Origin: Mycobacterium sp. BK086
Lineage (GTDB): Bacteria; Actinomycetota; Actinomycetes; Mycobacteriales; Mycobacteriaceae
Length of the DNA stretch: 64,000 nucleotides
Assembly (NCBI GenBank): GCA_004362315.1
Contig: SNWL01000010.1
Span: 248,001-312,000 of the forward strand
Direction of reading: 5' to 3'
Positions within the stretch are counted from its first letter, which is position 1; each line of letters begins with the position of its first letter. Under the pieces are notes generated by a model, which was given only the letters and a program-made list of their open reading frames with translations, ran no database searches and had not been told where the DNA came from. The position numbers were made by a program, and so were the translations under genes. Positions 14,248 through 41,598 of this stretch are shown one piece after another.

Positions 14248-14322
14248 CTCGGCAAACCCCCATCAGCGCCCACAAGAGTTACCAACCCACGCTATCGTAG
14301 CGAACCGTGGACCCGGTAGGTG

Positions 14323-16760: not shown

Positions 16761-17820
16761 ATGATCGAGGTCGTTATCGGAGTTGACGCACACAAGAGGA
16801 CGCATACTCTCGTCGCGGCTAACGTCAACGGCCGCAAGCTGGGGGAGAAGACGATCCCCACGACGAGCGCGGGGAATCAGGCCGCGATCCGCTGGGCGCG
16901 ACAACGATTCGGCGGCGGTCTGGTGTGGGGGATCGAGGACTGCCGGCCGCTGACAGCGCGCCTGGAACACGACTTGTTGGCCACCGACGCCAAAGTCGTC
17001 CGGGTACCGCCGCACCTGATGAGCCGATCGCGTGCCTCTTCGCGCACACCCGGCAAGTCGGATCCCATCGACGCGCTCGCGGTGGCCCGCGCCGTCTTGC
17101 GTGAACCCGATCTGCCGGCGGCCTTTCATGACCCGGTGTCATTGGAGTTACGGCTATTGGTGGACCGGCGCGAAGACCTCGTCCTTTACCGGACCGCTAC
17201 GATCAACCGACTGCTGGCGCGGGTCCACGAACTCGACCCTACGCACACCCATTCGTCCAACTGGCACTGGAAGAAGGCCAGAGAAACCATGCGGGACTGG
17301 CTGATCCCACATGCCGGCCTGACCGCGGAGTTGGCCCGCGACGAAATCGCCGACATCATCGCCGCATCCGAATCGATCGATGCGCTGTCCCGGCGCATCG
17401 GCGGGCTGATCCGCGGCGTGGCGCCGAGTCTGCTCGCCCTGAAAGGTTGTGGGGAATTGACCGCCGCCAAGATCGTCGCCGAAACCGCTGGCGTGCACCG
17501 CTTCAAAAGCGAAGCAGCCTTCGCGCGTCTCGCTGGAGTGGCACCCATTCCGCACTGGTCGGGTGACGCCAATGTGCGCTTACGGCCGACGCGGCGGGGT
17601 AATCGCCAGCTCAACACCGCGTTGCATCGCATCGCCGTCACCCAGATCCGTTGGGACGGACCAGGCAAGGTGTACTTCGAACGACGACTCCACGACGGCG
17701 ACACCCGCAGCCAAGCGTTGCGATCGCTGAAACGCCGGTTGGCTCGGGTGGTCTTCAACCGACTCCGCGCAGACCAGCCCCGTCCCGCCCTGCCTCTGTA
17801 ACCGTTGAGGCGTCCTAAGC
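16480..17820 (+). mobile_element. IS110-family insertion sequence (ends approximate)
   Basis: The element is recognised from its transposase. IS110-group elements usually lack terminal inverted repeats and target duplications, and I see none, so both ends are estimates: the left from where hairpin-rich non-coding sequence begins, the right from the short space before the next gene at 17828. Confidence 0.45.
16761..17801 (+). CDS. IS110-family transposase
   Basis: The 346-residue product starts at ATG 16761, ten bases after AGGAG. Its N-terminal RuvC-like DEDD domain is visible as IGVDAHKRTHT (Asp 8), WGIEDCRPL (Glu), and KSDPIDALAVARA (two Asp), and the C-terminal Transposase_20 domain as LLALKGCGELTAAKIVAETAG ... 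FARLAGVAPIPHWSGD, including the serine/GAPIP region required for catalysis. Length is normal and the frame is intact, so the element may still be active. The frame is open upstream to 16470, but that part does not resemble the family N-terminus. Confidence 0.93.
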   Translation: MIEVVIGVDAHKRTHTLVAANVNGRKLGEKTIPTTSAGNQAAIRWARQRFGGGLVWGIEDCRPLTARLEHDLLATDAKVVRVPPHLMSRSRASSRTPGKSDPIDALAVARAVLREPDLPAAFHDPVSLELRLLVDRREDLVLYRTATINRLLARVHELDPTHTHSSNWHWKKARETMRDWLIPHAGLTAELARDEIADIIAASESIDALSRRIGGLIRGVAPSLLALKGCGELTAAKIVAETAGVHRFKSEAAFARLAGVAPIPHWSGDANVRLRPTRRGNRQLNTALHRIAVTQIRWDGPGKVYFERRLHDGDTRSQALRSLKRRLARVVFNRLRADQPRPALPL

Positions 17821-20322: not shown

Positions 20323-20712
20323 TCACGCTCGCAAGGTCGGAGCGAGCGCGGCGTCGAGAATCTTTGCGTCGCGGGTCGCGATCGTGAGATCGCGGCGCAG
20401 TGCCTGGGCGACGATCACCCGATCGAATGGGTCTTTGTGCTCCCACGGAAGTCGGCCGGCCAGTATCGCGTCCGGCGACTCGATGGGCAATTCGCTGGTG
20501 CTCATGTCAGAAACAATGTCGGTCCAAGCCGACAGGAGTGCCTCGCCGTCGAGGCGACCGAGCCGCGTCTTGATGGCGATTTCCCATGCCGAGGCGGCCG
20601 TCACCCATACGCTGGTCTTCGGGTCGGCGATGATCGCTAACGCGGCGGTGTCGACCTCGGACGGAGCGCTCGCCAGCCACAGAAGTGTGTGCGTGTCCAA
20701 CAGGACGTTCAC
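20323..20712 (-). CDS. vapC: VapC toxin (PIN-domain ribonuclease), second module
   Basis: The 129-residue product shows the PIN residues in LLDTHTLLWLA (Asp 6), SAWEIAIK (Glu 44), DPFDRVIVAQA (Asp 97) and ATRDAKIL (Asp 115), with WEHKDPFDR being the form common in the PhoH-independent VapC subgroup. It overlaps its antitoxin gene by four bases and is convergent with the first VapBC module. Confidence 0.92.
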   Translation of the reverse strand: MNVLLDTHTLLWLASAPSEVDTAALAIIADPKTSVWVTAASAWEIAIKTRLGRLDGEALLSAWTDIVSDMSTSELPIESPDAILAGRLPWEHKDPFDRVIVAQALRRDLTIATRDAKILDAALAPTLRA

Positions 20713-21653: not shown

Positions 21654-24362
21654 TTATTCGGGATCCATGTCGGGCCGAACGATCTTGGCCAGTTCCTCGC
21701 GATCGGCAACGTCGAGTTTGATGCAAGCCCGATAAATGTGTCCTTCGACGGTGCGAACTGACACGGTGAGCTGATCGGCGATCTCGCGGTTGGACAGCCC
21801 GGCAGCCACCATCATCGCGATCTCGCGTTCCCGCATGGACAGCGGCAATGGTCGTGCGGCCGACCTGATCGCCGGAGTGGCCGCACCCCCGCATTGGGTC
21901 GCCAATCGCAGTGCGCGCGCGGAGGACTCGGCCTTCTTGCGTCGCCCCCGCTCGCCTTCGTGCAGCGGCACGGCTTGGGCAGCTGAGTCCGCCGCCGACA
22001 GCAGCATTCCCATCGCCTCGAACTCTATGCTGACCACGTCGAGCCCCTGCCCGTCACCGGCGGCCAGTGCCGCTGCGTGCCGTGCCTGTAGTGTGGCCAC
22101 CGGGCCGTCGATCTGGTCGGCGAGCTCAGCCAGCCGTTGTGCCACAGTAAGATCGCCGAAGCGGGCTGCGTGGTGCAGTGCCTCTGCCTCCACTGCGTAT
22201 TGTCCGGACCGACGTGCCAAGTCGGCAGCTTCGTGGGCCAGCTCAATACCCTGGCGTTCACCGGTCTTCGCGGCTGCCAGCGTGGCTTTCGCGATGAGGC
22301 GGTGGGGCTCGTGCAGGGCAACGTAGTCCCCGCTATGTTCCTTGGCGTCGGCCAGCACTCGTTCGGCCTGGTCGATTTTGCCGATCGCCGCATAGGCCCG
22401 CGCCAGCAGGAGCCGGGCCGGCAACCGCCACGGCAGTGACGCTTCGGCGGCCAGCGCCGCTAGCGCCTGCTCGATGGAGGTGATGGCCTCGGGGAAGCGG
22501 CCGCGGTGTGTCGCGACCAATCCGGTGGTGATCTTGGCGATGGCCCAGGCGAGGAATTGGCCGGCGGAGGAGAATTCCTCGTAGTCTGCGGCACGCTGGT
22601 CTGCGAGGTCGAGGTCGCCGGCGTACGTCAGGGCCAGAACATCGCAGTAGCGGACCATAACTCGGATCATGCCGTCCGTCGCTTTCTGCTCCGAACGGCA
22701 GCGGGCAGCGATCGGATCGAATGCAGCGCCGCGCCCGGCGACTGGCATGGCGAGGCCAGCGGCAAACGCGGCGAAGTCGACGGCTTGTTTGGGTGCATGC
22801 TCGTCCGCCAGTACCGCCTGCGCAGCGGCAATGCCATCATCTATCTGGTTTTGGTGCACAGCGATCGCTGAGCTAGTCGCTTCGACGATGAGCCGCAGGC
22901 TCGGATGTTCCACGCGTTCCCACAGCAGGCTCAGCATCTGGTGGGCGCGCTCGACGTCGCCCATCGACCAGAACAGGATGGAAAGCCTTGGGATGCCCCA
23001 CATAACGAGCTGTAATTCGTCGAGGTCATCCGGCGAGAACCGGGCGAGGATCTGTTCGGCTTCAACCGGGTGTCCCTGCCACAGCAAGGTGCGTGACAAC
23101 AATTCGGCGGATTGCACTCCGCCGTCGCGCTCGAAAGCGGCCCGGGCGAGGTGTTCACCGAGAGGCACGTTGGATAGGAAGATCGCATCCTTGGTGGCCG
23201 CGAGAAGCAGCCCGCTATCCACCGGCTCGTCACTGTCGACCGAGAGCCGGGCCAGCTGCAATCGGCTGGCCGCAGAGTCCAGTGATTGCTCGCGCAATAC
23301 GTTGACGATGCGTCCGCGCAGCCTGCGTGCCGATATCGTTCCGATCCGGCGGCGCACCACATCGCCGTATAACGGGTGGCTGAAGCGAGCGTTGAGCTTG
23401 GCGCCGTCTTGGACAACACGGATCAGTCCGGCGATCTCAGCGGTGTCGACAGCATCTTCGCCGGCCAGTTCACACAACGTATCGACGTCGAGCGGTTCAC
23501 ACAGCGCGAGCAGTTTGAGGGTGTCCACCACGTCGCTGGACAACTTGTCTAGACGGTCTTCGAGCAGCGCCGCCAGGCCGGAGGGCACTCCGGCGTCTCC
23601 CCGCAGCTGCCAGACACCGTCGACCTCAGTCAGTGTTGCGGCACTGAGAGCTCCTTCAACCATGTGCCGCAAGAACAATGGGTTGCCTGCCGAGGTGTGC
23701 CACATGACGTCGGCGGACAGGCCTTCCAGCGTTCCGCCGAGCACGGTTTCGATTAGTGCGACGCTTTGCGCTTTGGTCAGCGGTGCCAGCTCCAGGCGGC
23801 GCAGGTGATGGTCTTTCCAGAGCGCGGTGACCGCGTCAGGGACGGGTTCGCCGCTGCGCACGGTGGCGACGATAGTCCCGGCGCGTTCGACGGCGATCTG
23901 GTGCAGCAGCGTGGAGGACAGTTGATCAAGCAGATGTGCGTCGTCGACGCCGATTACGGTGTCGGGGCTGGTGATGACGGCATCGCGAGCAGCGGCCATC
24001 AGCGCCACCGGATCGCGCGAGCCCGTTGGTGGGATGCGGTGTGCGAATACGCCGAGGGGGATGCTGCGGGAGGATTCCGTGCAGCCCACCCACGCGACGT
24101 CGGTTTGTAGCGATTCGGTGACGGTTCGTGCCAGTGTCGTTTTCCCCACGCCGGCCGGTCCGACGAGCACGACGCCTCCGCCGCGGTCGGTGATTAGCGT
24201 CGAGCGAATCGACTCGAATTCCGCGGGCCGATCGAGCAACTGCCAACCCCTGCCCATTGGGGCGGAGTGTAACAGCCTGCCGGGCGTGTCGTTTCGGGAA
24301 TCTGAGTGCCATTTTGGCGCGGACTCCACCGCCGCGTTGGCGTGCTGTTCCGATGTGGGCAC
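21654..24362 (-). CDS. LAL-type LuxR-family ATPase regulator
   Basis: About 902 residues from a GTG at 24362 that follows GGAGG by nine bases. An N-terminal STAND-like NTPase module has Walker A GPAGVGKTT and Walker B-like TVIGVDDAHLLD. A long helical TPR-like middle region (about 300-810) follows. The C-terminal 65 residues are a LuxR HTH: LSMREREIAMMVAAGLSNREIADQLTVSVRTVEGHIYRACIKL. LAL regulators integrate a small-molecule or protein signal and activate transcription. It lies 51 bases after the catalase-related gene on the same strand, so it is likely the last gene of that operon and may autoregulate it. Confidence 0.92.
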   Translation of the reverse strand: MPTSEQHANAAVESAPKWHSDSRNDTPGRLLHSAPMGRGWQLLDRPAEFESIRSTLITDRGGGVVLVGPAGVGKTTLARTVTESLQTDVAWVGCTESSRSIPLGVFAHRIPPTGSRDPVALMAAARDAVITSPDTVIGVDDAHLLDQLSSTLLHQIAVERAGTIVATVRSGEPVPDAVTALWKDHHLRRLELAPLTKAQSVALIETVLGGTLEGLSADVMWHTSAGNPLFLRHMVEGALSAATLTEVDGVWQLRGDAGVPSGLAALLEDRLDKLSSDVVDTLKLLALCEPLDVDTLCELAGEDAVDTAEIAGLIRVVQDGAKLNARFSHPLYGDVVRRRIGTISARRLRGRIVNVLREQSLDSAASRLQLARLSVDSDEPVDSGLLLAATKDAIFLSNVPLGEHLARAAFERDGGVQSAELLSRTLLWQGHPVEAEQILARFSPDDLDELQLVMWGIPRLSILFWSMGDVERAHQMLSLLWERVEHPSLRLIVEATSSAIAVHQNQIDDGIAAAQAVLADEHAPKQAVDFAAFAAGLAMPVAGRGAAFDPIAARCRSEQKATDGMIRVMVRYCDVLALTYAGDLDLADQRAADYEEFSSAGQFLAWAIAKITTGLVATHRGRFPEAITSIEQALAALAAEASLPWRLPARLLLARAYAAIGKIDQAERVLADAKEHSGDYVALHEPHRLIAKATLAAAKTGERQGIELAHEAADLARRSGQYAVEAEALHHAARFGDLTVAQRLAELADQIDGPVATLQARHAAALAAGDGQGLDVVSIEFEAMGMLLSAADSAAQAVPLHEGERGRRKKAESSARALRLATQCGGAATPAIRSAARPLPLSMREREIAMMVAAGLSNREIADQLTVSVRTVEGHIYRACIKLDVADREELAKIVRPDMDPE

Positions 24363-24413
24363 TGTCCTCATCCTCCGTTTGGCTGGCGGTGCGACGAGAA
24401 GGCCGCGGTGTGT

Positions 24414-25535
24414 CTAGGCGGGCAGATCGGCCACGTCGGCCGGTTCCATGCGCGCCACGTTGTTGACCCGGTGGCGGAAGTCGCTGGAGGCCTCGTACAC
24501 CAGTTTCTTGAGTCGGTTGATCGAGCCGAGTGGACGGTGCGCGGCCAGTCCGCGCCACGAGTTGAACGACAGCACGTCGTCGCCGAAGCGGCGTCGCTCA
24601 GGTGTGTCGGGGTCCTGAATCCCGAAGGTGATCTTGGCGACGCCGACATGCGGGGAATCCTCCTCGGGCCACGGCACGGTGGCGTCTTCGATCGGCATCA
24701 TTGTCGGGTCGGTGCACAGCTGCACCTGCAGTTCGTATTCGCAGACGTTGGTGGCGCAAAACTCGACGACCATGTTGCGGAACGCATCTGGCCCTGCTGA
24801 CGCCGGCACCAGTTGCCCCTCAAGCGCTTTGACCGACTCCGACAACGGCACATATTGCAACTTCGCCACGTACTCCCCGTAGCGCAGTGGGGCAGAGGAA
24901 TAAAAGGTCAAGCCAAGGAGGTGGGTGTTGGGTTCGCTGAAGAGCTCCAACGCGGTCGGTAGCGACAGTTTCACCCGCTTGAGAACGGACTGAACCGCGC
25001 CCAGCGTGCGCCCGAGAGCCAGCATCATCGGGTCCGGTACCCGTGCCAGCAGCCACGCCATCGGCATGCCGCGCTTCAAATAGGCGTGCGCGTCTGGGAA
25101 GGGGAATTCCCGGTGGGTGACGAGAATGAAGTCCTGGGTGCTCGCATCGTCGTCGGCCAGGGCCCGCGGACCCGCCACGCCAAGGACTTTGATCCCCAGT
25201 CCCCGAACGCCCCGGGTTGCATCAGTGCGCAACGCGCCCGACGTACTCGAGAGGCGGGCGATCACCGGGTAGGTCGCTGGGGCGGCGAATAGTCCTTGAC
25301 GCAGGTGTTGGGGCAGGTCGGGATAGATCGTCAGCTCGCCACGCAGGATGCCGTGGCTCTTGGCGTGGGCGTCGCGGATGCCGTGGTGATACTTCTTGAA
25401 CGCCCACTCGTTGTTGCCGTGGAGCGCGTCCGCGATTCCCTTGATCAGCTCGGCCTCGTCGGGGCGTGGGTGTTCCAGGTCATCGCTGTAGCGCAAAAAC
25501 CGTGGCGACTCGGGAGTCTGCAGCGCGTCGGTCAT
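24414..25535 (-). CDS. catalase-related haem protein
   Basis: The 373-residue product has the catalase-family core in shortened form. HAKSHGILRGELTIYPD contains the distal-pocket His region, VIARLSSTSGALRTDATRGVRGLGIKVLGV corresponds to the RFS-x-T/RDPRGFA block, and QDFILVTHREFPFPD follows it. The C-terminal WRGLAAHRPLGSINRLKKLVYEAS block is typical of this group. I do not see the R-x-x-x-Y haem-ligand signature of true catalases. Relatives include the catalase-like peroxidase of M. avium subsp. paratuberculosis and the allene oxide synthase domain of corals (family knowledge). The ATG overlaps the peroxidase stop, so tight coupling suggests that it acts on the peroxidase product, for example a fatty-acid hydroperoxide. 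Confidence 0.85.
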   Translation of the reverse strand: MTDALQTPESPRFLRYSDDLEHPRPDEAELIKGIADALHGNNEWAFKKYHHGIRDAHAKSHGILRGELTIYPDLPQHLRQGLFAAPATYPVIARLSSTSGALRTDATRGVRGLGIKVLGVAGPRALADDDASTQDFILVTHREFPFPDAHAYLKRGMPMAWLLARVPDPMMLALGRTLGAVQSVLKRVKLSLPTALELFSEPNTHLLGLTFYSSAPLRYGEYVAKLQYVPLSESVKALEGQLVPASAGPDAFRNMVVEFCATNVCEYELQVQLCTDPTMMPIEDATVPWPEEDSPHVGVAKITFGIQDPDTPERRRFGDDVLSFNSWRGLAAHRPLGSINRLKKLVYEASSDFRHRVNNVARMEPADVADLPA

Positions 25536-27388
25536 CGTGATCTCGTTTCCGTAGTCGTGGCTGTCCAAGGCGCGAACGGATTGCTCACCCCGACCAGTGC
25601 CGGCCGCAACGAGGGGAAGTGCCGCAGCAGCACGCTGCGCATGTCGTTGTTCTTGACCCAGTCGAATCCCACTTCGGTGTAGATCTCGGGGGTGAAGTCG
25701 GCGGTGAAGAACCGGTCGCTTTCCAGGCGTCGCGATGCCATCAGAATGAAGATGCGAAATGCGGTGTCGCTGAACCCGAATCCCGGCGGCTTGGGTTCGG
25801 CGTACATTCCGATCATCAAGTCGACGCTCTCGACATCGCCGTAGATCTCCTCTAATTCGCGGGCCCAGTCCGGGTTGTCGGTGAGCTCCCCGAACGACGC
25901 GACGGGCTTGAGGTGCAAGAGGCGGCGAAATTCGTTGTAGCGCGGCACCGCCCGTTCCCGTGTCCGCAAGATATCGACCGCGGCCAGGTCGAGCAGCTCC
26001 CCGTCTGGCCGGTGGAGCTCTTGGAGGTGGCGCGGATAGTTATGCAGGGTGATGGCACCGGGGTGGGCTCGACCGAACGAGTAGAAGATATCGGCCATGT
26101 CGAGCTCGGACAGCCGATCCCGCACCTCAAGCACCGCAAGATCTGGCAGTTCGTGGCGGGCAAGCTCAGAATCGTCAGCCACCGATCGAAACACGAACTC
26201 GTCGGGGATCAGTGGATGCATCCGGTAGACGGCGACGAACTCTTCGGTCAGCGAGTACGGGACACCGTGGAAGTTCGTTGGCGATCCCGGAATACCCTGC
26301 AGGACTTCGTTGTCGGTCAGCCGGCCGAACCGGCGGGCGAATTTCTCGCCGAGAACACCGAACCAGTTCGCCCGCATGGCGAATACCGTCGTGGGGTGGG
26401 CGATGATCGCCGGAGTCCAGTCCAAGGTGTGGATCTTCGCCATCAACGCGGCGTTGACCAGGCGTGCGGCGTCGTAGAGCTGCTGGTCTGACAACTGCGG
26501 GTAGACGGCCGCAAGCCGGTCACAGATCGCGTTGTGCTCACGCATGAACAACGAATGCAGGATGGCCAGACCCACCCAGAAATTGCCGGCCGTGCCGGTG
26601 AGGTCGACGTACGCTTCGACATCGGTAGGAGGCAGGCCCGCGTCATCGATGCGCAGCCGACCACCAGACTGGGTGCGCAACGCCTTCGCGAAAACCGGTT
26701 CCGTGCCATAGATTTGGGAACCATCCCACCAGTGGCTGTCCTGGGTGATATACGTTGGCGGTCCCCATCCGCTGACGTTGGGGTCGGGTGCGGTGCGTTT
26801 GATCCTCATCGGATCCTGCGGCCACGAGTCGCCGGGTTCCAGCGGGATCGTCCAGCTGTTGCTGGCCGAGGTGTCGTGGCTGAGCCAGTCATGCACCTCG
26901 AACTGAATCCAAGCGGCGGCGAGCAGGTTCAGCGTAGTGGCCGGCTGAAACTCGCTGCGGGTCAGCAGCGCCCGGCTGATCAGGCGCGGGCTCGGCCTCA
27001 ACAGCTGATCGGGGTCCTCCCGATAGGCGTGGGTGAGGGGAACGTTGCGGCCGAAACGGCAGCCCACCGCCCCCATGAGCGGATCGTCGAGATTGTTGTA
27101 GGCGCCCGACAGGGTACGCGCGGTGCGGTGGTTGGCGATTTCGTCATCATTGCCGGCCAGCTGCTCTCCGCAGCCGCAGCCGCAGCCGCAGCCGCAGCCG
27201 CAGCCGCAGCCGCAGCCGCAGCCGCAGCCGCAGCCGCGGCCACTGTCGGTGAGGTTATTCGCGCGAAGGCGCGCCCGAAGCCCGACTAGCACCGGGATCC
27301 CCAGCGCTGTGGGCAGTTTGGACCAGCCGATGCGGCGGTCCACCTGTTCAGCGACCCATGACAGCATCCGCGTCAGCGTGTACGTCAC
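25532..27388 (-). CDS. haem peroxidase of the animal-type/alpha-dioxygenase superfamily
   Basis: The 618-residue product resembles fatty-acid alpha-dioxygenases and cyclo-oxygenases. Distal-side WIQFEVHDWLSHD (His 166) matches the HDW-x-x-H signature, DSHWWDGSQIYG and ILHSLFMREHNAICD are the next blocks, and VYRMHPLIPDEF gives the proximal His 391 with Tyr 388 three residues earlier, the position of the radical tyrosine in those enzymes. A fatty-acid 2-hydroperoxide or related product is therefore plausible. Residues 51-74 are an unusual run of eleven Cys-Gly dipeptides inserted between a membrane-leaning N-terminus and the catalytic domain. No secretion signal is clear. It lies 36 bases after the caspase-like gene and overlaps the catalase-related gene by four bases. 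Confidence 0.88.
   Translation of the reverse strand: MTYTLTRMLSWVAEQVDRRIGWSKLPTALGIPVLVGLRARLRANNLTDSGRGCGCGCGCGCGCGCGCGCGCGCGEQLAGNDDEIANHRTARTLSGAYNNLDDPLMGAVGCRFGRNVPLTHAYREDPDQLLRPSPRLISRALLTRSEFQPATTLNLLAAAWIQFEVHDWLSHDTSASNSWTIPLEPGDSWPQDPMRIKRTAPDPNVSGWGPPTYITQDSHWWDGSQIYGTEPVFAKALRTQSGGRLRIDDAGLPPTDVEAYVDLTGTAGNFWVGLAILHSLFMREHNAICDRLAAVYPQLSDQQLYDAARLVNAALMAKIHTLDWTPAIIAHPTTVFAMRANWFGVLGEKFARRFGRLTDNEVLQGIPGSPTNFHGVPYSLTEEFVAVYRMHPLIPDEFVFRSVADDSELARHELPDLAVLEVRDRLSELDMADIFYSFGRAHPGAITLHNYPRHLQELHRPDGELLDLAAVDILRTRERAVPRYNEFRRLLHLKPVASFGELTDNPDWARELEEIYGDVESVDLMIGMYAEPKPPGFGFSDTAFRIFILMASRRLESDRFFTADFTPEIYTEVGFDWVKNNDMRSVLLRHFPSLRPALVGVSNPFAPWTATTTETRSR
27171..27236. repeat. hexanucleotide microsatellite (CAGCCG x 11) inside the peroxidase gene
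   Basis: Eleven perfect CAGCCG units run without interruption. On the coding strand they specify Gly-Cys alternation (residues 53-74). The unit is a multiple of three, so slippage would change the number of Cys-Gly pairs without breaking the frame. Confidence 0.95.
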
Positions 27389-27423
27389 CGTGGTCCTCCT
27401 CGGGCTCCTGGCGATATTGGTTC

Positions 27424-28869
27424 TCAGTTGGCGGGCGTCGGAATCGCGACGGTCGGATCGCCGAGCAGCACCGTGCAGGCGCGGTCGTAGGCGGTGACTT
27501 TGTCGTAGAGCGCCAAGTCGAGTGCGGATCGGCGGGCCTGCGGGTCGGGCGCGACGGCGTGAGTTTCAAGGGCTTGCGTGTGCTGCAGGAGCAGCGTTCC
27601 GACGGCCGTATAGAGCCGGGCGTTGGCCATGCCCAGGCCGACCGGTGCACCGCGGCAGACCTCGTTGTACATCAGGCGACAGACCCAGTCAGTGAGCTGG
27701 GCCTTGGTAGGCGGGAACCACAGCGTCCACTCGAAGGTGGGCTCCACGTGGCCGATGAAGGCGCGCAGGGGGCGCGCGGCGCCCAGTAGCGCGGCGGGCA
27801 GCGGCGAGGTCACCGCGCCGACGGCCGACACTCCGTCCAGCACCCGCCCGGTGTCGGTGGACGTGTCGAACAGGTTGCTGTAGATGCTCGGTCGCTGCGC
27901 CCCGGCGGAGCAGCAGGCTTGTGCGAACCAGATCGCGCCGTCTGGTTGCCACTGGTTCAGCAGTTCGTTGGGCTCAATGATGCTGCGGTCGGCGTCGACG
28001 AGCAGGCCTAGTTGCCGGCGCATCTCGTCGGTATCGTTGAGCGGGGAGGTATTGCCGTGGCTGGTCGTCACGACGACGCTGGGGCGCGAGGTTTTCAGAG
28101 CCGCGACAAGTAGCGCCTTGGTGGCGTGCACGTTGGTTCCGTCGATGAATGCGGTCGCGTGCAGGTCGGTGTCCTGGTGATAGAGGTCGTATAGGGGTGC
28201 GGCGACCGCGTCGCGCATGAGCGGGGTGATGTCGCCGCCGTGGTTGACCGCCCAGATCACCGGCGAGCTGTAATCGGTTGTGCTGCCTTTCCAATTGTCG
28301 ATGAGGGCGTGCACGTAGTTCGCCAAGCCGGTGTCGTCGAGGTCGAGGCGACCGACCTTTCGCACCTGGTTGAGCTTGAATTGCAGCGTCCACGGTATGT
28401 CTCGGGGTGAGCCGACTATCAACAGGTAGTCGGGGATTGCGCCGGCTGCGACGCCGATCGGAGCGGTCGCAAAGGTGATGTCGGTACACGTGGTGTAGTC
28501 GCGCAGGGTGTTGAGAGCGTCGGTATCGGTGCGGTAGCGCAGCACCTTAGACGCGGGCCGCTCGGCCAGCAGCGCGCGGATCGGTTCGGGTGCATCGGAG
28601 CCGGTGCGGCGTTGGTCGTCGGTGAGGTCAGCCGCGTCGGGCAGGATGACGCCCCAGCCGATTTCGGGGTCCTGCCATTGCTGCGCCGGCACCGGTGGCG
28701 GCGGCAATAGCGCTTGGTCGGCGCGCAGGGCCGCCCGCGAGAGTGTCCATTGGTCGCGCAGCGAACCGAGCGGTGCACTGGCGGCGCGCTCTCCCATCCA
28801 CGCGTTGCACCGCACGGTCGCCAGCGCCGCGAAGTTCGGCGGCACGAATCCAGCTGGAGTGGAAGGCAT
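27424..28869 (-). CDS. caspase/gingipain-like (clan CD) peptidase homologue
   Basis: The 481-residue product has the fold markers of peptidase C25/caspase-like proteins: a strand ending VVVTTSHGNTS with the catalytic His 271, and later GAIWFAQACCSAGAQ with the candidate nucleophile Cys 319 or 320, followed by a gap and AFIGHVEPTFEW. The N-terminal half (about 75-200, GWGVILPDAADL ... DYLLIVGSPRDIPWTLQF) corresponds to the gingipain N-domain-like strands. No signal peptide, so cytosolic. It lies between the CHAT protein and haem peroxidase genes in the operon, ten bases after the former. Proteolytic activity and substrate are inferred, not shown. Confidence 0.8.
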   Translation of the reverse strand: MPSTPAGFVPPNFAALATVRCNAWMGERAASAPLGSLRDQWTLSRAALRADQALLPPPPVPAQQWQDPEIGWGVILPDAADLTDDQRRTGSDAPEPIRALLAERPASKVLRYRTDTDALNTLRDYTTCTDITFATAPIGVAAGAIPDYLLIVGSPRDIPWTLQFKLNQVRKVGRLDLDDTGLANYVHALIDNWKGSTTDYSSPVIWAVNHGGDITPLMRDAVAAPLYDLYHQDTDLHATAFIDGTNVHATKALLVAALKTSRPSVVVTTSHGNTSPLNDTDEMRRQLGLLVDADRSIIEPNELLNQWQPDGAIWFAQACCSAGAQRPSIYSNLFDTSTDTGRVLDGVSAVGAVTSPLPAALLGAARPLRAFIGHVEPTFEWTLWFPPTKAQLTDWVCRLMYNEVCRGAPVGLGMANARLYTAVGTLLLQHTQALETHAVAPDPQARRSALDLALYDKVTAYDRACTVLLGDPTVAIPTPAN

Positions 28870-28878
28870 TTCGGTGCC

Positions 28879-30207
28879 TCAGTCGCTCGGGCCGGTGGTG
28901 CCCGCGCCGTCATCGTCGGGCGGTCTGGTCATGTTCCTCTTGATTTCAGGCGGCAGGTCCATTTGCGCCAAGATCTGCTCTGCGAGCTGGGCCTTGTCGG
29001 CCGCGCGGGCGACTGTAGGATCGGCGGGTACCTTGAATCGGAACCGATCTGGCCGCACGATCACCACGGGCAGCGTCCACTTCTGCGTAGTTGTGGCGGC
29101 GTGATCGAAACCCTGTCCTTGGTCAGGGCATAGCTGTCGCCGGGCATCGATGGTCAGGGTCGCCCAGTCGAGTTCGCAGGTACCTTCCTTGGCCATCAGA
29201 GACCTCATCTGGTCGAGCATCGATTGGTAGAAGGTGCGCGTGAATGTCGCTGCGTCGGTATCCAATACCGGTTTGCGCATCCCGACGACCGCTTGAATGC
29301 CCTGCTCGCGGACGAGGAGGTCGGCCAGCGAGCGGGCTCCCGACTGATCTGGGTTGTCTGCGGTACTACAGGCATTGAGCACGATGGCCCACGGCGACGG
29401 ATAGCCCGGCCGTACAAGGTCGCGGACCTGCCTGGCCTCGAGTCGATGTCCGCTGGTCTGCGCGCCGGCCGCAATGTCGTTGGCGGTGGCGATCTCCAGG
29501 TGTGCACCGCCGAGGGTGCTGCCGTGGCAAAACAGATGCAAAATGTGTGGACCGAACTCGGTGATCTTGCTCTGCAGGTCAACGTATTTGACTGGCACCA
29601 GTCCGACGGTCAGCCACGGCGGGCCGTTCGCGTACAGCTCGTCGTGCAGATCGGTGTCCGACATCAATAGCAGGACCCTCACATCGGCGGTCGAGGCCGC
29701 GATCGCGTCGTGAAGCGACTGCCACTCATTGCGCGAGTCCACGCCTAGCGATGACAGCACGGCGGCGATTCGAAATGGTGGCGCGAACGAGCGGGTCAAG
29801 ACCTTGCCCGCATCGCTTTGCAGCATCCGCCCGATGGGCCATTTTTCGAGCGTCAGGAATTTGTCGTCTTTCCACAGCATCTCCCAGGCGAAGTCGTGGA
29901 GTTCTTCGGCGGCGGTCAGATCGAAATACATCGGCACACGGCGCCCGTTGCGCGCCAGTGTCGTGCGTGCGTCGAGGACTTTACGGACGGTCTCGCCGGT
30001 GTAGAGCGCGTTGAAGAGTTCGGATCCGGTCGCAGTGTTATCGGTCTGCTGCCCCAGGCGTCCGACGACGGCACTGATGTCAAACAAGTTCAGGTCGTAG
30101 GTGTCCCAATCTCCGCTGGTGGGTTCCCGCACAGACAATGTCGTAAGTGGCTGCTGTGCGGCCAGCCCACGCAGCTTCTGGAAGCAGAACACGATTCGGG
30201 CTGTCAT
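28879..30207 (-). CDS. CHAT-domain protein (caspase-like) with intact His-Cys dyad
   Basis: The 442-residue product carries HILHLFCHGSTLGGAHLEIA with His 228 and WAIVLNACSTADNP with Cys 280, the dyad of CHAT/caspase-like proteases, followed by the REQGIQAVVGMRKPV strand. The N-terminal 150 residues have a ligand-binding-like alpha/beta layout (FDLTAAEELHDFAWEML) often seen before CHAT domains. CHAT proteins act in bacterial immunity and cell-death signalling in several systems. Its ATG overlaps the stop of the next upstream gene, whose product is a degenerate CHAT protein, suggesting a paired complex. Confidence 0.85.
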   Translation of the reverse strand: MTARIVFCFQKLRGLAAQQPLTTLSVREPTSGDWDTYDLNLFDISAVVGRLGQQTDNTATGSELFNALYTGETVRKVLDARTTLARNGRRVPMYFDLTAAEELHDFAWEMLWKDDKFLTLEKWPIGRMLQSDAGKVLTRSFAPPFRIAAVLSSLGVDSRNEWQSLHDAIAASTADVRVLLLMSDTDLHDELYANGPPWLTVGLVPVKYVDLQSKITEFGPHILHLFCHGSTLGGAHLEIATANDIAAGAQTSGHRLEARQVRDLVRPGYPSPWAIVLNACSTADNPDQSGARSLADLLVREQGIQAVVGMRKPVLDTDAATFTRTFYQSMLDQMRSLMAKEGTCELDWATLTIDARRQLCPDQGQGFDHAATTTQKWTLPVVIVRPDRFRFKVPADPTVARAADKAQLAEQILAQMDLPPEIKRNMTRPPDDDGAGTTGPSD

Positions 30208-31643
30208 GAGATCCCCGTCTCGCCGTGCTGGTTACTCCATTGCCGCACCTGCTCGTTGAAACTGTCCGAAACGTTGCGCAGCGCATCGATGGCATCGGGA
30301 TTGGGTGAACCGCCGGCGCTGCCGATCATTTGGGCGTGCAGCGTTTCCAGCGTGCGTGCGCCCGACGCGACCCAGCCCGGCGCGTCAGGAGCGGCCAGAA
30401 CACTGAGGGTGTAGTTAGAAATCAGCGCCGACGTGCCATCAGGCTCGGTCAGCGCGGCATCCGCTGCGGATTCGTTGGCGGAACGTTCCGCAGTGGTGAA
30501 CCACGCGGTGATCAGCGGATGCCAGCACGACACGTCGGGCATCGCTGCCTCGGGTATCTTCCCCGTGATCATGCGCAGGGATTCCTCAGCCTGATCCTGG
30601 CTCGATTGGGTGACACGAACGGCGCCGGCTGGCGTCGCCGGGTGCTGGTGCAAAATGACGACCCCCGGCCGGGTTTCGGTGATCGCAGTGGCAAGATCCC
30701 GCAGTCCTGCAGGACTTGCGTTTTCAGCCGGGGCGGTGATCAGCACAGACCACGCGCCCAGCGAGGTCAGGGCTGCACAGAGATCGGGAGCATCAATGCT
30801 CCGTTCTGGGGCTTTCCCGAACATCGTGCGTCCGTCGGCATCGATAGACACACTTTGCTCTGGAGGTTCGCTCGCGACGGAGGGTAGTGCCAACACGCCG
30901 CGATCACCCCGGAACGACCCGTGCCCGATCAACTGCAGAATGTCGATGGCTCTTCCCTCAAGCGCGGATCCGATCCATGCGCGCCAGCCGATCGTCGTCT
31001 CGTGCGGCGGATCGTGGACGGTGACTTTGTGCGTTGCGGCGCCACTGGATTGCATGTCGGCGTGGGCGCCGACAATGTTGCGAACCCCGTCGCAGTCGCC
31101 TGCCGGAACGAAGATGTCGATGATCAGGTCTTTGTCGGGGAAGGTGTTTCGCCAGTCGCTCACCGCATGGGCCACCGCCGCCTTCACCGAAAACGGCGTC
31201 CGGTGCGGCGAGCAGCCCGCCACGATAGCGACAATCAACGGCCATTTCGCGTGTGGCACAAGCTCATAACGGGGCAATCTGACCAGCGGCACAGGCAGGT
31301 GCTCGGCAAGCAGCCGTTCCCAGGGGACAAGGTGCAGGTAGCCGCGTGGTGCCGGCAGGTCCAATAGGTACACCGGATCCTTGAAGGTGGCGACCTCGCG
31401 CAGGGCGCTCAGAATCTGCCGCAGCAGGTCGTCGGGTATCTGCAGTTCGTCTTCGGTGATGTCGCGTCGGGACGTGATGACGTCGGGTAGGCCCAGTCGC
31501 GTCGTCGGTTCTGCGGCGATCTTCGTTGGCGCATCCGAGCCGCGCAGCACCTCGAAGGCGGCTAGGGTCGCGGCGCTGGAATCCGGGGCGGACTGGACCT
31601 GGATCCGCAGCACTGGCACATTGGCCTCGATGACGTCGGCCAT
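30204..31643 (-). CDS. degenerate CHAT-like protein (catalytic Cys lost)
   Basis: About 479 residues from ATG 31643. It has the CHAT N-terminal mark PRGYLHLVPWERLL (about 99-112) and the catalytic-His strand ILQLIGHGSFRGDRGVLALP (His 241). The strand that should carry the nucleophile reads WSVLITAPAENASPAGLRDL, with no Cys at the expected place. It therefore looks like a pseudo-protease, probably a regulatory partner of the intact CHAT protein encoded next. A C-terminal extension of about 150 residues is helical. Its stop overlaps the next gene by four bases. Identity as CHAT-like is clear in two motifs, less so overall. Confidence 0.75.
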   Translation of the reverse strand: MADVIEANVPVLRIQVQSAPDSSAATLAAFEVLRGSDAPTKIAAEPTTRLGLPDVITSRRDITEDELQIPDDLLRQILSALREVATFKDPVYLLDLPAPRGYLHLVPWERLLAEHLPVPLVRLPRYELVPHAKWPLIVAIVAGCSPHRTPFSVKAAVAHAVSDWRNTFPDKDLIIDIFVPAGDCDGVRNIVGAHADMQSSGAATHKVTVHDPPHETTIGWRAWIGSALEGRAIDILQLIGHGSFRGDRGVLALPSVASEPPEQSVSIDADGRTMFGKAPERSIDAPDLCAALTSLGAWSVLITAPAENASPAGLRDLATAITETRPGVVILHQHPATPAGAVRVTQSSQDQAEESLRMITGKIPEAAMPDVSCWHPLITAWFTTAERSANESAADAALTEPDGTSALISNYTLSVLAAPDAPGWVASGARTLETLHAQMIGSAGGSPNPDAIDALRNVSDSFNEQVRQWSNQHGETGIS

Positions 31644-31644
31644 G

Positions 31645-32973
31645 TCAGTCCCGGACTTGGGAGAGCAGCATCCAGGCGGTCGCGGGATTGGCGACATCGC
31701 CGTGGCCGGAGATGACCTCATCGGAGCGAACACCAACGATTTTCGGGTCGGCCCCGAACGTGTAGTCGGTGGGCGGGAACGCGGCGTCGACGGTGGTGCT
31801 CGCGACGCCCTGCGGCCCGTAGCCGCCGAGCGCGGCGTACCGGCTGGGCACCGGGGACTCGGAGGCGATCTCGGGTTCACCGAGGTCTCGGTCGCGGCGC
31901 GCCGCGAGATGGAACAGCCGTGTCAGCGGGACGTCTTTTTTGCTGAACGTGCTCATGATGGGTTTGGCAGTGCGTGCCGGCGCATGGCTGTATCCGCCGG
32001 CCAAGTCAGAGCCGGGGATGGCGCCGGCCGGTGCGAAGCAGTAGCACGAAGTCGCCGCCTGCAGCAAAAGCACGGAGTTGACGGTGACGGAATCTGCGGC
32101 ACTGGGTGCACATAGGGCCGACAGCACCACCTTGGCTCCGTAGGAGTGCCCGATGAGATGGATGTGGGCGTCGGGATTGGCCGCCCGAAGCGCAAGCAGT
32201 GTCTGCGAAACCCCGGTTGCTCCGACGCGCCCGGCACGGTCCTTCATCATCAGTACTGTTGCTGCCCTGATTAATTGGCGGGGATCGAGTAGATCGCTCA
32301 GGGCAGCGACCTCGGGTTCGGCCGCGCCGCCCGTATCGGCGAGGCCTCCCACCCGGCGGCTAACCGACTGATTTGCGGACTGGCTCAGTTGGCGGGCGAT
32401 GTCGAGCAGTTCAGTTGCGTCTGGCTCCGCCTGCCCCAGTTCGTCGGGTGCCTTGCCGAGGGCCTTGGTGAGCAGCCTGGCCGCCTCAAGCGCCTCCTGC
32501 TCGTTGACACGGTCTTTCGTCAGCAGCTCACTGGCGCGTGCGGTGAGTTCGGAGGACAGGTTCGCGGTCAGCTCGAGCAGGTCCTGCGTGTCGGGTGCCA
32601 GTGCCCCTAGATCTGGAGCTGCGGCGATTTGCGGGGCTTGCTCGTCGGCTCCGACGAGGACCGCGCTCGGCCAAAACACGCCGGCGAGCACTGGGGCGTA
32701 TCCCGGCCGGGGCGGGCCCGTGATGTGCTGGCGCACAGCAAGGTAGGCGGTGATGAACTCGTTGTAGCGGTTGAGCGCAGTGGGCCAGGTGTTGTTCCAG
32801 CCGTGGGAGAAAAGGAAGATGTCCGATGCTGTTGTCGCGTCCCCGAGCAGACGTTGGCGGGTACGCGGGCCCACGCATGTGCCCTCCTTGTCGAACGGGA
32901 TGACGTAGAACGGTGCGCGGGTGTTGCCAGGTCCGTCGACGACGCGCGTGGGACCTTCGAGTGGGGTGGTCAT
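31645..32973 (-). CDS. alpha/beta-hydrolase
   Basis: The 442-residue product begins MTTPLEGPTRVVDGPGNTRAP after an AGAGG site. DIFLFSHGWNNTWPTAL is the oxyanion strand of alpha/beta hydrolases, and HIHLIGHSYGAKVVLSAL is the nucleophile elbow with Ser in G-H-S-Y-G. An inserted helical region of about 150 residues (QDLLELTANLSSELTARASELL ...) separates the two and would form a large lid. The catalytic Asp and His are probably in the C-terminal third (SGHGDVANP). It is the first gene of the leftward operon to 21654 and could act as a lipase or acyl-hydrolase supplying the peroxidase substrate. Confidence 0.8.
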   Translation of the reverse strand: MTTPLEGPTRVVDGPGNTRAPFYVIPFDKEGTCVGPRTRQRLLGDATTASDIFLFSHGWNNTWPTALNRYNEFITAYLAVRQHITGPPRPGYAPVLAGVFWPSAVLVGADEQAPQIAAAPDLGALAPDTQDLLELTANLSSELTARASELLTKDRVNEQEALEAARLLTKALGKAPDELGQAEPDATELLDIARQLSQSANQSVSRRVGGLADTGGAAEPEVAALSDLLDPRQLIRAATVLMMKDRAGRVGATGVSQTLLALRAANPDAHIHLIGHSYGAKVVLSALCAPSAADSVTVNSVLLLQAATSCYCFAPAGAIPGSDLAGGYSHAPARTAKPIMSTFSKKDVPLTRLFHLAARRDRDLGEPEIASESPVPSRYAALGGYGPQGVASTTVDAAFPPTDYTFGADPKIVGVRSDEVISGHGDVANPATAWMLLSQVRD

Positions 32974-33022
32974 GCAGTCACGTCCTCTTGTTGTTTGCCT
33001 GCATAGGGATTGGCGCCGAGTG

Positions 33023-33044
33023 ACGCGCAACATCTGTTGCGCGT
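33023..33044. promoter_or_regulatory. 22-bp inverted repeat upstream of the hydrolase-to-LuxR operon
   Basis: Perfect arms ACGCGCAACA and TGTTGCGCGT with a two-base centre lie 50 bases upstream of the hydrolase start. It is a strong candidate operator for the seven-gene operon, and it differs from the palindrome of the neighbouring regulon. Confidence 0.55.
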
Positions 33045-33058
33045 AAGTGCGGGGACGT

Positions 33059-33081
33059 TCGCCGGACCCGTGATCCGGCGA
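33059..33081 (-). terminator. hairpin after the haem-binding-like gene
   Basis: Eight-base arms TCGCCGGA and TCCGGCGA enclose a seven-base loop, 40 bases after the leftward stop at 33122. On that strand an A/G run precedes it rather than a T-run following, so it would be a poor intrinsic terminator but is placed as one. Confidence 0.5.
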
Positions 33082-33121
33082 GCGTCCCCTTCTTGACCAA
33101 CTTGACACTTGTTGCCCTCGC

Positions 33122-34354
33122 CTAGATGTCGTGGGCAATTGGCTTGGCGGGCACGAGCGTGGCTACTGATACGTGCGGCCAGGTGAGATTCGCGAAGTTC
33201 AGCGATACGTTCTGGGTGTATTGGATCTGTGGATAGGTCACGGTGACCGTTTGTGGGCTGGTCAGCGCCGTCGCGGACGTCACCGCGAACGTCGGTGCGG
33301 GTGCCCCGGAGGGTACCGTCGGCGAGACCTTCTGTGTCTCACCGGCCTTCAGCGGTCCGACGGCGATATCGACCTGGACGGTTTCAATCCAGAAGATCGA
33401 CGACATCTGGACTGCGTTGGCGTTCGGACCCGAGCCGTCGTCGCCGACGAGGAACCCGATGTTGTCGGTGCCTCCACCGGGCACCGTGACTGAGTGCGTG
33501 TCGACGATGATGACGTCGGTCGAGGTGATGTTCATGCCTGCAATGTGGTCTCGCAGCATCGAGTTCGGGTCGTCGAGCAGCGCTTGGGTAAGTGCCGGGG
33601 CGATCGACAGGTCCTGCGGGATGCGTGCCGTCTCGGTGTTTGACGCGGTCTGGCTGGCGAATGGGATTGGCGAGCCGGGGTTGCCGATCGGGAACGGGGT
33701 GATGTCGACCCGGTCGATCGTTGGTCCTCCCGGTACGCTGAACGCGCGACCCTGGGCGTTGATGGTCGTGCCGTGGGGGATCGATGCCATCCGCGCGAAG
33801 GTGGCCTCGGTCTGGGCGGGGTGCTCGGTCGCCGGCACGATGACCCATAAGCCGGGCTCGAGGTGAATCGGTGTGGTGTTCTTCGGGTCGGTGACGTCAC
33901 TAATCGTCTGCAGATACGGCACGCCGTTGAGGAAGATGTCGCCCTCTACCTCACCGCGGTTGGGTACCGCGCCCAGAGGGTCCTGGAACGATAGTGATTC
34001 GATGGTCAGGTTCAGCTCGAGGATGTTGTCGCTGCCGGGCTGTGGTTTCGGTAGCTGGGTGGGTGTGGCAGGGTTCTGCGGCCGGAAGATCGTGTTGAAG
34101 CCGCGTCCGGTGAAGGTTCCGGTGAACGCCTTGAGCGGGCCGAGGTCCGGCGCGATATCGGCCGGGGCTGGCGGCGCAACGCCGGGCTCGACGGGGACCT
34201 CGTTGATGACGAAGCCGGCCGGAATCTGCACCGCAGCGGTCAGTTTGGTGCGCGGCAATTTCCGACGCGCCGCCACGGGGACTTGAGTGGCCGCCTTTGC
34301 GGACATCTTGGTCGGTGATTTGCCAGACGTCTTCGTCGGCGTCTTGGTAGCCAT
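33122..34354 (-). CDS. hypothetical protein, haem-binding-protein-like
   Basis: The 410-residue product has a Lys/Thr/Pro-rich N-terminus (TKTPTKTSGKSPTK) and then a domain starting LKAFTGTFTGRGFNTIFRPQN and ending ILELNLTIESLSFQDPLG, which resembles a beta-barrel domain annotated as haem-binding in some fungal and bacterial proteins; I rate that link as moderate. Later segments are all-beta (PHGTTINAQGRAFSVPGGP, TDVIIVDTHSVTVPGGGTDN). No cysteine and no signal peptide. I start at ATG 34354; a GTG at 34363 is possible. It is preceded by a regulon palindrome at 34421-34438. Confidence 0.65.
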   Translation of the reverse strand: MATKTPTKTSGKSPTKMSAKAATQVPVAARRKLPRTKLTAAVQIPAGFVINEVPVEPGVAPPAPADIAPDLGPLKAFTGTFTGRGFNTIFRPQNPATPTQLPKPQPGSDNILELNLTIESLSFQDPLGAVPNRGEVEGDIFLNGVPYLQTISDVTDPKNTTPIHLEPGLWVIVPATEHPAQTEATFARMASIPHGTTINAQGRAFSVPGGPTIDRVDITPFPIGNPGSPIPFASQTASNTETARIPQDLSIAPALTQALLDDPNSMLRDHIAGMNITSTDVIIVDTHSVTVPGGGTDNIGFLVGDDGSGPNANAVQMSSIFWIETVQVDIAVGPLKAGETQKVSPTVPSGAPAPTFAVTSATALTSPQTVTVTYPQIQYTQNVSLNFANLTWPHVSVATLVPAKPIAHDI

Positions 34355-34420
34355 ATTCTTCACCCATCGGCAGAAGGAACGGTGTAGTCGAAATGGTGTC
34401 CGGGATCGTCGGCGCCAGCA

Positions 34421-36482: not shown

Positions 36483-37424
36483 TCAGTGTTGCGGTTCTTC
36501 GACCGGCCCCTCCGCTCCGTGGACGGCATTGGAGTAGAGGAATTGGACTGGTGTCTTACGCGGCCCGGGCATGGTGAGTACCTCTTTGAAGACTTCGTCC
36601 AACGAGTTGGCCGAGATGGGCTGGTCACCTATCTCCTGGCCGCTGCGGGAATTGAATCCGATGAAGCGCTGATCGTTCTCTCGGATGGCGTCACCGACGT
36701 CAGGGTCCGTTTGGGACTCCATCAGCTCGTGATACAGCGTGCACACCACGTTCTTCCACGGAGTGCTGAAAAATGGAATGCCGTTACGCCGGCCCGAGCG
36801 GACGGCGGAGTATGCGTTGGCCGAATAGTAGAGCGTGTGGTCCCGCCCATTGCGCGAGAAGTGCACCGATCCGTGATAGCCGCCAAGGCCGTTGCGGGAA
36901 CTGGAGTCACCCAATTTGAGGACCGTATCCGGTGCGAGCAACAGATTGAAGACCGTCCGATCGTGGTCGGTGGCGAGGATCAGGTTGCGGTCGAAGAGGT
37001 CGATAATCTTGTTTTGGACGTCCGGCTCATCCATCTCGTCAACCTTGTCCTCGTCCAGGGTGACCGAGGGCGCGACGTCATATGCGAGCGCCTTGCCGGG
37101 AAAATACTGTTGAATCACATTCTTGAGTTGCTTGTCACGCATCAGCCGAGTGATCGCGTCGTCAATGTTCTCCACATCTCCTGGCGCAAAGTCGCCGCCG
37201 CGTCCGAGGTAGATGTTCTGGAATCCCATCTGCGGAAGCACCTTTCCTCCGTGGAAGACCAGATCGTCTTTCGGCGACGCGCTGACGCCCGGTGCAAGCG
37301 CCTCACGCACATCCTCATCGGTGCGGCGCGCCTCGTTCCTGTAGTAGCAGTATTCAGCTTGAGATCCTGGCGCCACTTGTATCCGCATCGGGTACGGGAA
37401 GTTCTTATATTTGGACTTGGTCAT
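36483..37424 (-). CDS. hypothetical protein with HELxE-type metal-binding motif
   Basis: The 313-residue product starts MTKSKYKNFPYPMRIQVAPG after a strong AGGAGCAAGAA site. CTLYHELMESQTDPDVGDAI near residue 230 has the H-E-x-x-E plus TDP form also seen in EXORDIUM/phosphate-induced-1 and related putative zinc proteins. The segment DKVDEMDEPDVQNKIIDLFDRNLI is acidic and helical. No signal peptide is visible. A metalloprotease or metal-binding role is possible but not established. Confidence 0.7.
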   Translation of the reverse strand: MTKSKYKNFPYPMRIQVAPGSQAEYCYYRNEARRTDEDVREALAPGVSASPKDDLVFHGGKVLPQMGFQNIYLGRGGDFAPGDVENIDDAITRLMRDKQLKNVIQQYFPGKALAYDVAPSVTLDEDKVDEMDEPDVQNKIIDLFDRNLILATDHDRTVFNLLLAPDTVLKLGDSSSRNGLGGYHGSVHFSRNGRDHTLYYSANAYSAVRSGRRNGIPFFSTPWKNVVCTLYHELMESQTDPDVGDAIRENDQRFIGFNSRSGQEIGDQPISANSLDEVFKEVLTMPGPRKTPVQFLYSNAVHGAEGPVEEPQH

Positions 37425-37617
37425 TTCTCTTGCTCCTATGGTGTGTGGCGGCAAGGCGGTGGTGTGGTTCACGCCACCCGTTGGTGGGCGCCACAGTCGT
37501 TGTTTCGGTGTGGTTTTCAGCTTTTCGCTTAGGGTTTCGGACTCCAACGCATCGGTGCGTTTGCCAAGCGAGACGTTGGGAGCCAAGTTGGTTCGGAGCT
37601 GGGGAAGGACGGCCTGG

Positions 37618-41441: not shown

Positions 41442-41516
41442 CGTGAGAACACCCCTTGCGATCAGTTGCGAACGGTGTGCCATTTGACATTCTGCGCACC
41501 ACGGCGGCGGGATACC

Positions 41517-41534: not shown

Positions 41535-41598
41535 ACTTCGACTGTTCATCTGACGGGCGGTGGCCAGCGAGTAGGAGTAGAAGTCGCGCTGCGGATTT

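Follow-up and report, generated by a model that had tools for sequence, protein, structure and literature searches.

We analysed a 64,000-nucleotide stretch of Mycobacterium sp. BK086 (assembly GCA_004362315.1, contig SNWL01000010.1, positions 248,001 to 312,000 of the forward strand; hereafter the window, with coordinates counted from its first letter). Between 21654 and 32973 on the minus strand lie seven tightly spaced genes, which encode, reading leftward, an alpha/beta hydrolase (ABH), a CHAT-like pseudopeptidase (dCHAT), a CHAT peptidase, a gingipain-like peptidase (Casp), an alpha-dioxygenase-type haem peroxidase (aDOX), a catalase-related protein (CatR) and a LuxR/LAL regulator. This operon is a composite, in which an ABH-dCHAT-CHAT-Casp cassette (the clan-CD cassette below) is joined to an aDOX-CatR-LuxR operon. 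Its genes and features are as follows.

31645..32973, minus strand: ABH, alpha/beta hydrolase, 442 residues (PF06259 and PF05990 just over cut-off; invariant residues; start and spacing)
30204..31643, minus strand: dCHAT, CHAT-like pseudopeptidase without the catalytic Cys, 479 residues (hhalign to CHAT)
28879..30207, minus strand: CHAT peptidase, His228/Cys280, 442 residues (PF12770; profile match to 8tl0)
27424..28869, minus strand: Casp, gingipain-fold (C25-like) cysteine peptidase, His271/Cys319, 481 residues
25532..27388, minus strand: aDOX (HPx), alpha-dioxygenase-type haem peroxidase, 618 residues, GTG start (PF03098; 4kvj)
27168..27241, minus strand: in-frame hexanucleotide repeat, 12.3 copies, within aDOX
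24414..25535, minus strand: CatR, catalase-related protein, 373 residues (PF00199 weak; profile search; ATG overlaps the aDOX stop)
21654..24371, minus strand: LuxR/LAL-type ATPase regulator, 905 residues (GerE PF00196, AAA PF13401; relatives adjoin aDOX-CatR in congeners)
33122..34363, minus strand: FMP-type haem-binding protein (NF040572, E 3e-75), upstream, perhaps a separate unit

Among the cassette proteins, ABH matched its two Pfam families at E 1.2e-4 (PF06259) and E 1.9e-4 (PF05990), and bears a GHSYG nucleophile and a triad of Ser277, Asp347 and His424 that is invariant among 15 aligned rows; the ABH of locus L023 was omitted for its broken frame, and the ABH search profile was built from 14 ABHs. 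Its neighbour dCHAT is homologous to CHAT (hhalign of the dCHAT against the CHAT alignment, probability 94%, E 1.5e-7) and has no Cys near the site in 11 of 12 rows, the remaining row (L013) having two in other columns. The His is retained in 6 of the 12 rows, including that of the window, which carries one extra residue preceding the Met, and the predicted dCHAT model is only moderate (pLDDT 68.9). CHAT itself matches PF12770 (E 2.7e-15, 57 bits against a cut-off of 24) with H228 and C280 invariant in 12 rows, and its profile matches the CHAT protein 8tl0 of SAVED-CHAT (E 5.9e-7). PADLOC, run protein by protein on nine window proteins, revealed a match of the CHAT gene to SAVED_CHAT (E 9.7e-9) over residues 209-361 only, weak generic matches for the regulator and none for the other seven, and Pfam found CHAT alone in the CHAT gene, with no SAVED domain fusion. 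For Casp, VIA-align of the predicted model showed a gingipain-like caspase fold; Foldseek with this model gave poor matches only (TM about 0.2), and a PDB sequence search with the Casp profile gave one match at E 0.1. The Pfam C25 model, PF01364, is matched by the Casp homologues of L014, L166 and L169 and not by the window Casp or the proteins of L112, L164, L021 and L022. Of the Casp dyad, C319 is invariant and H271 is present in at least 90% of 18 rows (missing in L023; the L025 Casp omitted as a split frame), and a simple hydrophobicity scan, which is not a proper signal-peptide test, found no strong N-terminal hydrophobic segment.

The next gene in line, aDOX, matches 4kvj (E 1.6e-116) and 4hhr (E 1.6e-111) across residues about 86-610 of its 618. 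H166, Y388, H391 and R553/R554 are identical across all 25 rows, that of the window among them, and align with the same residues of 4kvj; we take them to be the catalytic Tyr, the distal and proximal His and the carboxylate-binding Arg. A title in the reference list of PMC8720084 names His-311 and Arg-559. The hexanucleotide repeat (98% matches) codes for a Gly-Cys run in the aDOX N-terminal linker that is missing from the 24 other aDOX rows compared, and is possibly a length-variable site or a metal-binding run. CatR alone matched PF00199 below cut-off, and its 13-row profile reached catalases at 1.2e-4 and 3e4w at 0.0021, a significant catalase match, with Y347 invariant in all 13 rows. The regulator matches GerE PF00196 at E 4.4e-14 and AAA PF13401, as well as NF050132 at E 7.7e-72, yet under the cut-off of that family. 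An earlier, sequence-only reading of this DNA had proposed a seven-gene leftward array holding a haem peroxidase paired with a catalase-like protein and three clan-CD-type proteins. The array and the pairing, here of an aDOX-type oxygenase with CatR, were borne out, and of the three clan-CD-type proteins CHAT and Casp have intact dyads, the third being a conserved pseudo-CHAT without the Cys.

We then compared the cassette and the oxygenase operon with other genomes, with counts resting on tblastn, Pfam or hhalign. Script gene calls were crude and some antisense; the exceptions to those counts are the L023 dCHAT, the L051 subtilase (clustered with that of L052) and an amidase-like neighbour in L154 (by eye), and some fetched stretches end at contig ends. 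Searches with Casp revealed it in 7 of 298 genomes of the order, the window's included, and a scan of named genomes yielded 10 more loci in Actinomycetota, Chloroflexota and Pseudomonadota, such that 16 further loci (the order's other hits plus these 10) were available in stretches of 11-21 kb. ABH is present in 15 of the 16, and 11 have the full order ABH-dCHAT-CHAT-Casp, among them two with a broken frame (the ABH of L023 and the Casp of L025) and one whose dCHAT was assigned by clustering (L023). L018, L021 and L022 have ABH and Casp only, in L022 within one open frame, while L015 has a distant ABH with Casp and L014 a long Casp only. Two more cassettes lie at L112 and L150 (the L150 dCHAT by hhalign), and two plasmids, a conjugative one of Bradyrhizobium and one of Gemmobacter, also carry the four genes (dCHAT by hhalign, 99.9%); of the 72,556 plasmid records searched, 6 encode the Casp protein. 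Stop/start overlaps of the ATGA type recur across many of these loci, and ABH-dCHAT-CHAT-Casp is a free-standing, translationally coupled cassette. The sole LuxR hit among the 16 loci, in L025, was rejected as an orthologue, being a partial match of 28% over 134 residues.

The aDOX-CatR-LuxR genes are an older operon of the host genus. CatR occurs in 22 of 298 genomes of the order, and its neighbourhoods were compared in 13 of the 22 (14 regions, plus the window's own). Six congeners among the 14 regions hold aDOX-CatR-LuxR in line, at 55-71% identity to the window proteins, and four of these six carry a divergent subtilase and ABH pair beside the operon (the L052 subtilase matches PF00082 at E 1.3e-38), their ABHs being only 27-28% identical to that of the window. 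Three more regions (L058, L059 and L060) have CatR-LuxR with no aDOX in the stretch and other conserved genes beside it, so the substrate of CatR may come from elsewhere in these three, and the remaining five have CatR without this LuxR. ABH was found with the 14-sequence profile in 42 of 248 genomes of the genus (38 regions newly fetched, plus the window, L051 and L054; G733 left out), with a subtilase adjoining it in 35 genomes and a clan-CD gene doing so in 4 (the window, L112, L148 and L149); L144 has only a weak C39-like gene beside ABH, and L141 (contig end) and G733 were not judged. A close aDOX (at least 62% identity) is present in 38 of the 248 genomes, and ABH occurs in 32 of these 38 against 10 of the 210 without one (Fisher p 1.6e-25, a value that is too small because the genomes share ancestry), with the control, genomes holding only a distant aDOX (46-52% identical), having ABH in 1 of 29. 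Of the 32 genomes, 27 carry both genes on a single contig no more than 13.1 kb apart, and in 22, among them the window's, the distance is at most 4.3 kb. Two layouts were seen, one with aDOX-CatR-LuxR divergent from subtilase-ABH and another, at seven loci, with CatR-LuxR divergent from a codirectional aDOX-subtilase-ABH; the gene set was therefore kept while its order changed.

Further genes accompany some of these congener pairs. L119 encodes a PatA/PatG-type cyanobactin maturation protease (13932-16037; TIGR03895, E 2.3e-180) about 1.4 kb from the pair's subtilase, and the N-terminal domain of the L054 subtilase (12730-14742) resembles Mrr_N (E 9.1e-6, under the cut-off) and is possibly a sensor. 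In L051 (2719-3934), a papain-like peptidase gene, its family checked in L052, is followed near subtilase-ABH by a small protein that we take to resemble a chagasin-type inhibitor, and a protein beside the operon there is, judging by a motif, presumably PPE-like.

Beyond the genus, ABH was found in 16 of 396 genomes of a phylum sample, and 14 of its regions were fetched (G325 left out). L155 has a haem peroxidase about 2.5 kb from the subtilase of a subtilase-ABH pair, and L161 (7536-12235) has a subtilase, ABH, a 138-residue protein with no Pfam match, presumably EACC1-like, and a caspase C14 gene in line. On the Nostoc sp. MS1 plasmid (L166), a haem peroxidase gene is followed in line by genes for ABH, for a C25 peptidase and for an nSTAND1-WD40 protein with a CHAT annotation. 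In other families of the order, a patatin stands near aDOX/CatR at L062, and at L063 a DyP-like gene together with a Tle1-like phospholipase. What recurs is an ABH accompanied by a peptidase of one kind or another.

Phylogenies of ABH and aDOX are compatible with a swap of one peptidase set for another. In the ABH tree (71 of 72 sequences, within length limits), a fully supported branch (100/100) splits 17 rows, all with a gingipain-like gene and including that of the window, from 54 rows that are mostly subtilase-linked. In the aDOX tree (25 of 26 sequences, within the same kind of limits), the window's aDOX branches, at an open fork, amid lineages that carry subtilase-ABH. At the cut-offs applied, the window genome has a single ABH of the family and a single aDOX, and the Casp-aDOX junction measures 35 nucleotides with the genes in line. 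The simplest reading of these sequences is that the clan-CD cassette replaced a subtilase-ABH pair at a resident aDOX operon, 35 nucleotides upstream of aDOX; the combination of peptidase, ABH and aDOX/CatR/LuxR looks to have been retained and the peptidase class to be exchangeable. The sequence-only reading had tied the oxylipin genes to caspase-type proteins and had named a lack of conservation in other genomes as one of the outcomes that would refute it. An oxygenase operon with a peptidase and a hydrolase is conserved in other genomes, but the clan-CD genes are not inherent to it: congeners use subtilase-ABH, and we rejected the candidate of an inherent clan-CD component because aDOX occurs in 0 of the 16 other loci's stretches.

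Around the operon, the gap of 148 nucleotides between the FMP-type gene and ABH holds strong hairpins at 32976-33121 (-63 kcal/mol, z -4.6), perhaps a terminator or processing site, and promoter and terminator scans gave nothing above chance. The FMP-type gene has no tblastn match in L010-L025 or L051-L064, and the gene at 36483-37586 matched no Pfam family over cut-off. Farther upstream, 39690-45196 encodes a PLD-like protein, a DUF2278 protein whose lamin-tail match is weak, and a protein resembling galactose/glyoxal oxidases, while downstream of the operon lie an IS110-type transposase and a PIN-domain gene (16470-17801 and 20323-20712).

We give an even chance to a reading in which the two modules serve one lipid pathway, with a peptidase-controlled ABH freeing fatty acids that aDOX and CatR oxidise and process. 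The presence of peptidases of unrelated forms beside ABH points to cleavage as the switch of ABH, or else to one target on which ABH and peptidase both act. Upon a signal, CHAT and the gingipain-like peptidase would cut ABH, activating or releasing it, or would remove an ABH inhibitor, perhaps acting in series in a manner modelled on the SAVED-CHAT cascade and with the pseudo-CHAT as a candidate scaffold or regulator of the two. ABH would then liberate fatty acids from cell lipids, aDOX would turn these into 2-hydroperoxy fatty acids by placing O2 on carbon 2, and CatR would reduce, dehydrate or cleave these products, with the LuxR/LAL protein presumably governing expression; in most ABH-bearing congeners, a subtilase-ABH pair would act in place of the cassette module. 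The output may be a signal, a toxic burst limiting phage spread or membrane remodelling. What the sequences themselves show is the order and coupling of the genes, their conserved catalytic residues, the recurring linkage and trees compatible with a swap; we infer the enzyme activities, the action of ABH on lipids and its control by proteolysis, the order of the steps and any signalling, immune or suicide role. PMC8720084 describes alpha-dioxygenases as converting fatty acids to 2-hydroperoxides, which proceed to aldehydes and 2-hydroxy acids. A more specific version, an inflammasome-like lipid logic in which interchangeable death-type peptidases activate a lipase and aDOX with CatR makes 2-hydroperoxide oxylipins as an alarm or self-killing burst, we consider unlikely; if true, it would be an independently assembled counterpart of the animal caspase-phospholipase-cyclooxygenase axis and of the alpha-dioxygenase defence response of plants.

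Several observations weigh against the swap and the shared pathway. Genes for aDOX, CatR and FMP are found in 0 of the 16 further Casp loci (tblastn in the 11-21 kb stretches), and the genome of the cassette-bearing congener G691 gave no aDOX match at E 1e-40, so the cassette can exist without aDOX. Within the genus, the linkage is incomplete: in 5 of the 32 genomes with both genes these lie 1 Mb apart (one genome) or on different contigs (four), 10 congeners have ABH without a close aDOX and 6 have aDOX without ABH, and the Fisher p-value is, as noted, too small. Three ABHs with clan-CD partners (L015, L148 and L149) nevertheless group on the subtilase side of the tree, and ABH lineage and peptidase class therefore match imperfectly; the tree tool also flags the window ABH as a long branch. 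Profile matches of ABH to PDB entries are weak (a fusion with endolysin at 8.7e-4, acetyl xylan esterases at 0.0029). Of the 14 phylum regions, 6 have a subtilase beside ABH and 1 the clan-CD cassette, and the other 7 have neither adjacent, as judged with the query panel only and with other peptidases not sought (L153 has a subtilase about 6 kb off). Five of those 7 come from one genus, and among the 3 that were gene-called a penicillin-amidase-like neighbour is present in L154 (assigned by eye) and L158 (the one checked with Pfam) and not in L162. Finally, a peroxidase occurs in 1 of 7 plasmid regions, and that one, on the Nostoc plasmid, is not close to aDOX and not demonstrably one.

Other explanations of the locus were weighed against the shared pathway. 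It is possible, though rather doubtful, that the clan-CD cassette is an abortive-infection module whose peptidases act as sensors or are triggered and whose ABH damages the membrane, with aDOX/CatR adding a toxic lipid-peroxide burst or an alarm to neighbours. An ABH beside caspase-superfamily genes is a published pairing of conflict systems (PMC7159879), and longer Casp homologues have as neighbours genes for CHAT-SIR2 (L014), nSTAND1-WD40 (L015) and WD40 (L022) proteins, of which those of L015 and L022 cluster with a gene of L014. The nSTAND1-WD40 gene that adjoins ABH-C25 in Nostoc, the caspase C14 gene that adjoins subtilase-ABH in L161 and the patchy spread of Casp (7 of 298 genomes, 6 of 72,556 plasmid records) also fit such a module. 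However, the LuxR/LAL regulator is the only sensor NTPase found in the window operon, PADLOC yields just the SAVED_CHAT match and weak generic ones, and a scan of viral contigs with a single peptide pattern gave 41 matches, none of them a relative.

We judge it quite unlikely that the locus is simply metabolic, with aDOX-CatR-LuxR carrying out a fatty-acid alpha-oxidation that serves lipid turnover or supplies aldehydes and hydroxy acids, ABH as a housekeeping lipase and the peptidases doing no more than aid its maturation or turnover. The aldehydes and 2-hydroxy acids described above as the fate of aDOX 2-hydroperoxides, and the lipases of patatin and Tle1-like type close to other aDOX genes, agree with this, but a housekeeping lipase needs neither peptidases of unrelated fold nor a conserved pseudo-CHAT, and ABH is sporadic (42 of 248 genus genomes). 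That a mobile clan-CD cassette landed upstream of aDOX by chance, with no functional link, seems to us a little less likely still, even with the cassette occurring elsewhere without aDOX, G691 included, and an IS110-type transposase about 4 kb downstream of the operon. Its junction lies in line and 35 nucleotides from aDOX, and its set of ABH and peptidases occupies the place that an ABH-peptidase pair takes in many congeners with this aDOX. Returning to the shared pathway, unrelated peptidases appear to have been exchanged in nature around a single hydrolase family, which leads us to predict ABH as their common target or partner.

Comparison with known systems places each half of the operon near published relatives. 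In VMAP ternary conflict systems, a caspase-superfamily domain is always accompanied by a neighbouring alpha/beta-hydrolase gene and joint operation is suggested, according to Kaur et al. 2020 (eLife, PMC7159879). The window's ABH-peptidase genes resemble this hydrolase-caspase neighbourhood, but the nine window proteins scanned contain no MoxR or vWA family (for the regulator, among its best 25 families), the window peptidases are CHAT, gingipain-fold and pseudo-CHAT proteins, and the operon continues into aDOX-CatR-LuxR. In type III CRISPR SAVED-CHAT, CHAT reportedly activates a second caspase-like enzyme. The window CHAT is a distant sequence match to that peptidase and likewise adjoins another, gingipain-fold peptidase, whereas only the CHAT part is matched, no CRISPR gene is present among the window open reading frames scanned and the window has ABH. 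This type III CRISPR system is presented as immunity through a proteolysis cascade in PMC11229360. With plant and cyanobacterial fatty-acid alpha-dioxygenases (4kvj, 4hhr), the window aDOX shares the match over residues about 86-610 and the conserved His, Tyr and Arg residues, and it differs in its genomic partners, which are CatR, a LAL regulator, ABH and peptidases. Brash and colleagues reportedly described a cyanobacterial pair of a haem dioxygenase (linoleate 10S-dioxygenase) and a catalase-related hydroperoxide lyase; the window similarly has a haem-peroxidase-family oxygenase adjoining a catalase-related protein, but its oxygenase is of the alpha-dioxygenase type. Compared with the gingipains (C25), the window Casp lacks a PF01364 match and, by the simple scan, a strong N-terminal hydrophobic segment.

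By title and abstract, among the matches listed and with most subscription literature outside the search, no paper joins an alpha-dioxygenase with a caspase, CHAT, gingipain or subtilase and a hydrolase. The parts of the operon are known or have known relatives, and what is unexpected is an oxylipin arm on a hydrolase-peptidase pair. Bacterial alpha-dioxygenases, a group of which little is known outside plants according to the abstract of PMC8720084, gain a genetic context that can be tested. For the hydrolase-caspase pairs of conflict systems, which PMC7159879 lists without a job in its passages on them, the link to aDOX suggests peptidase-controlled making of oxidised lipids.

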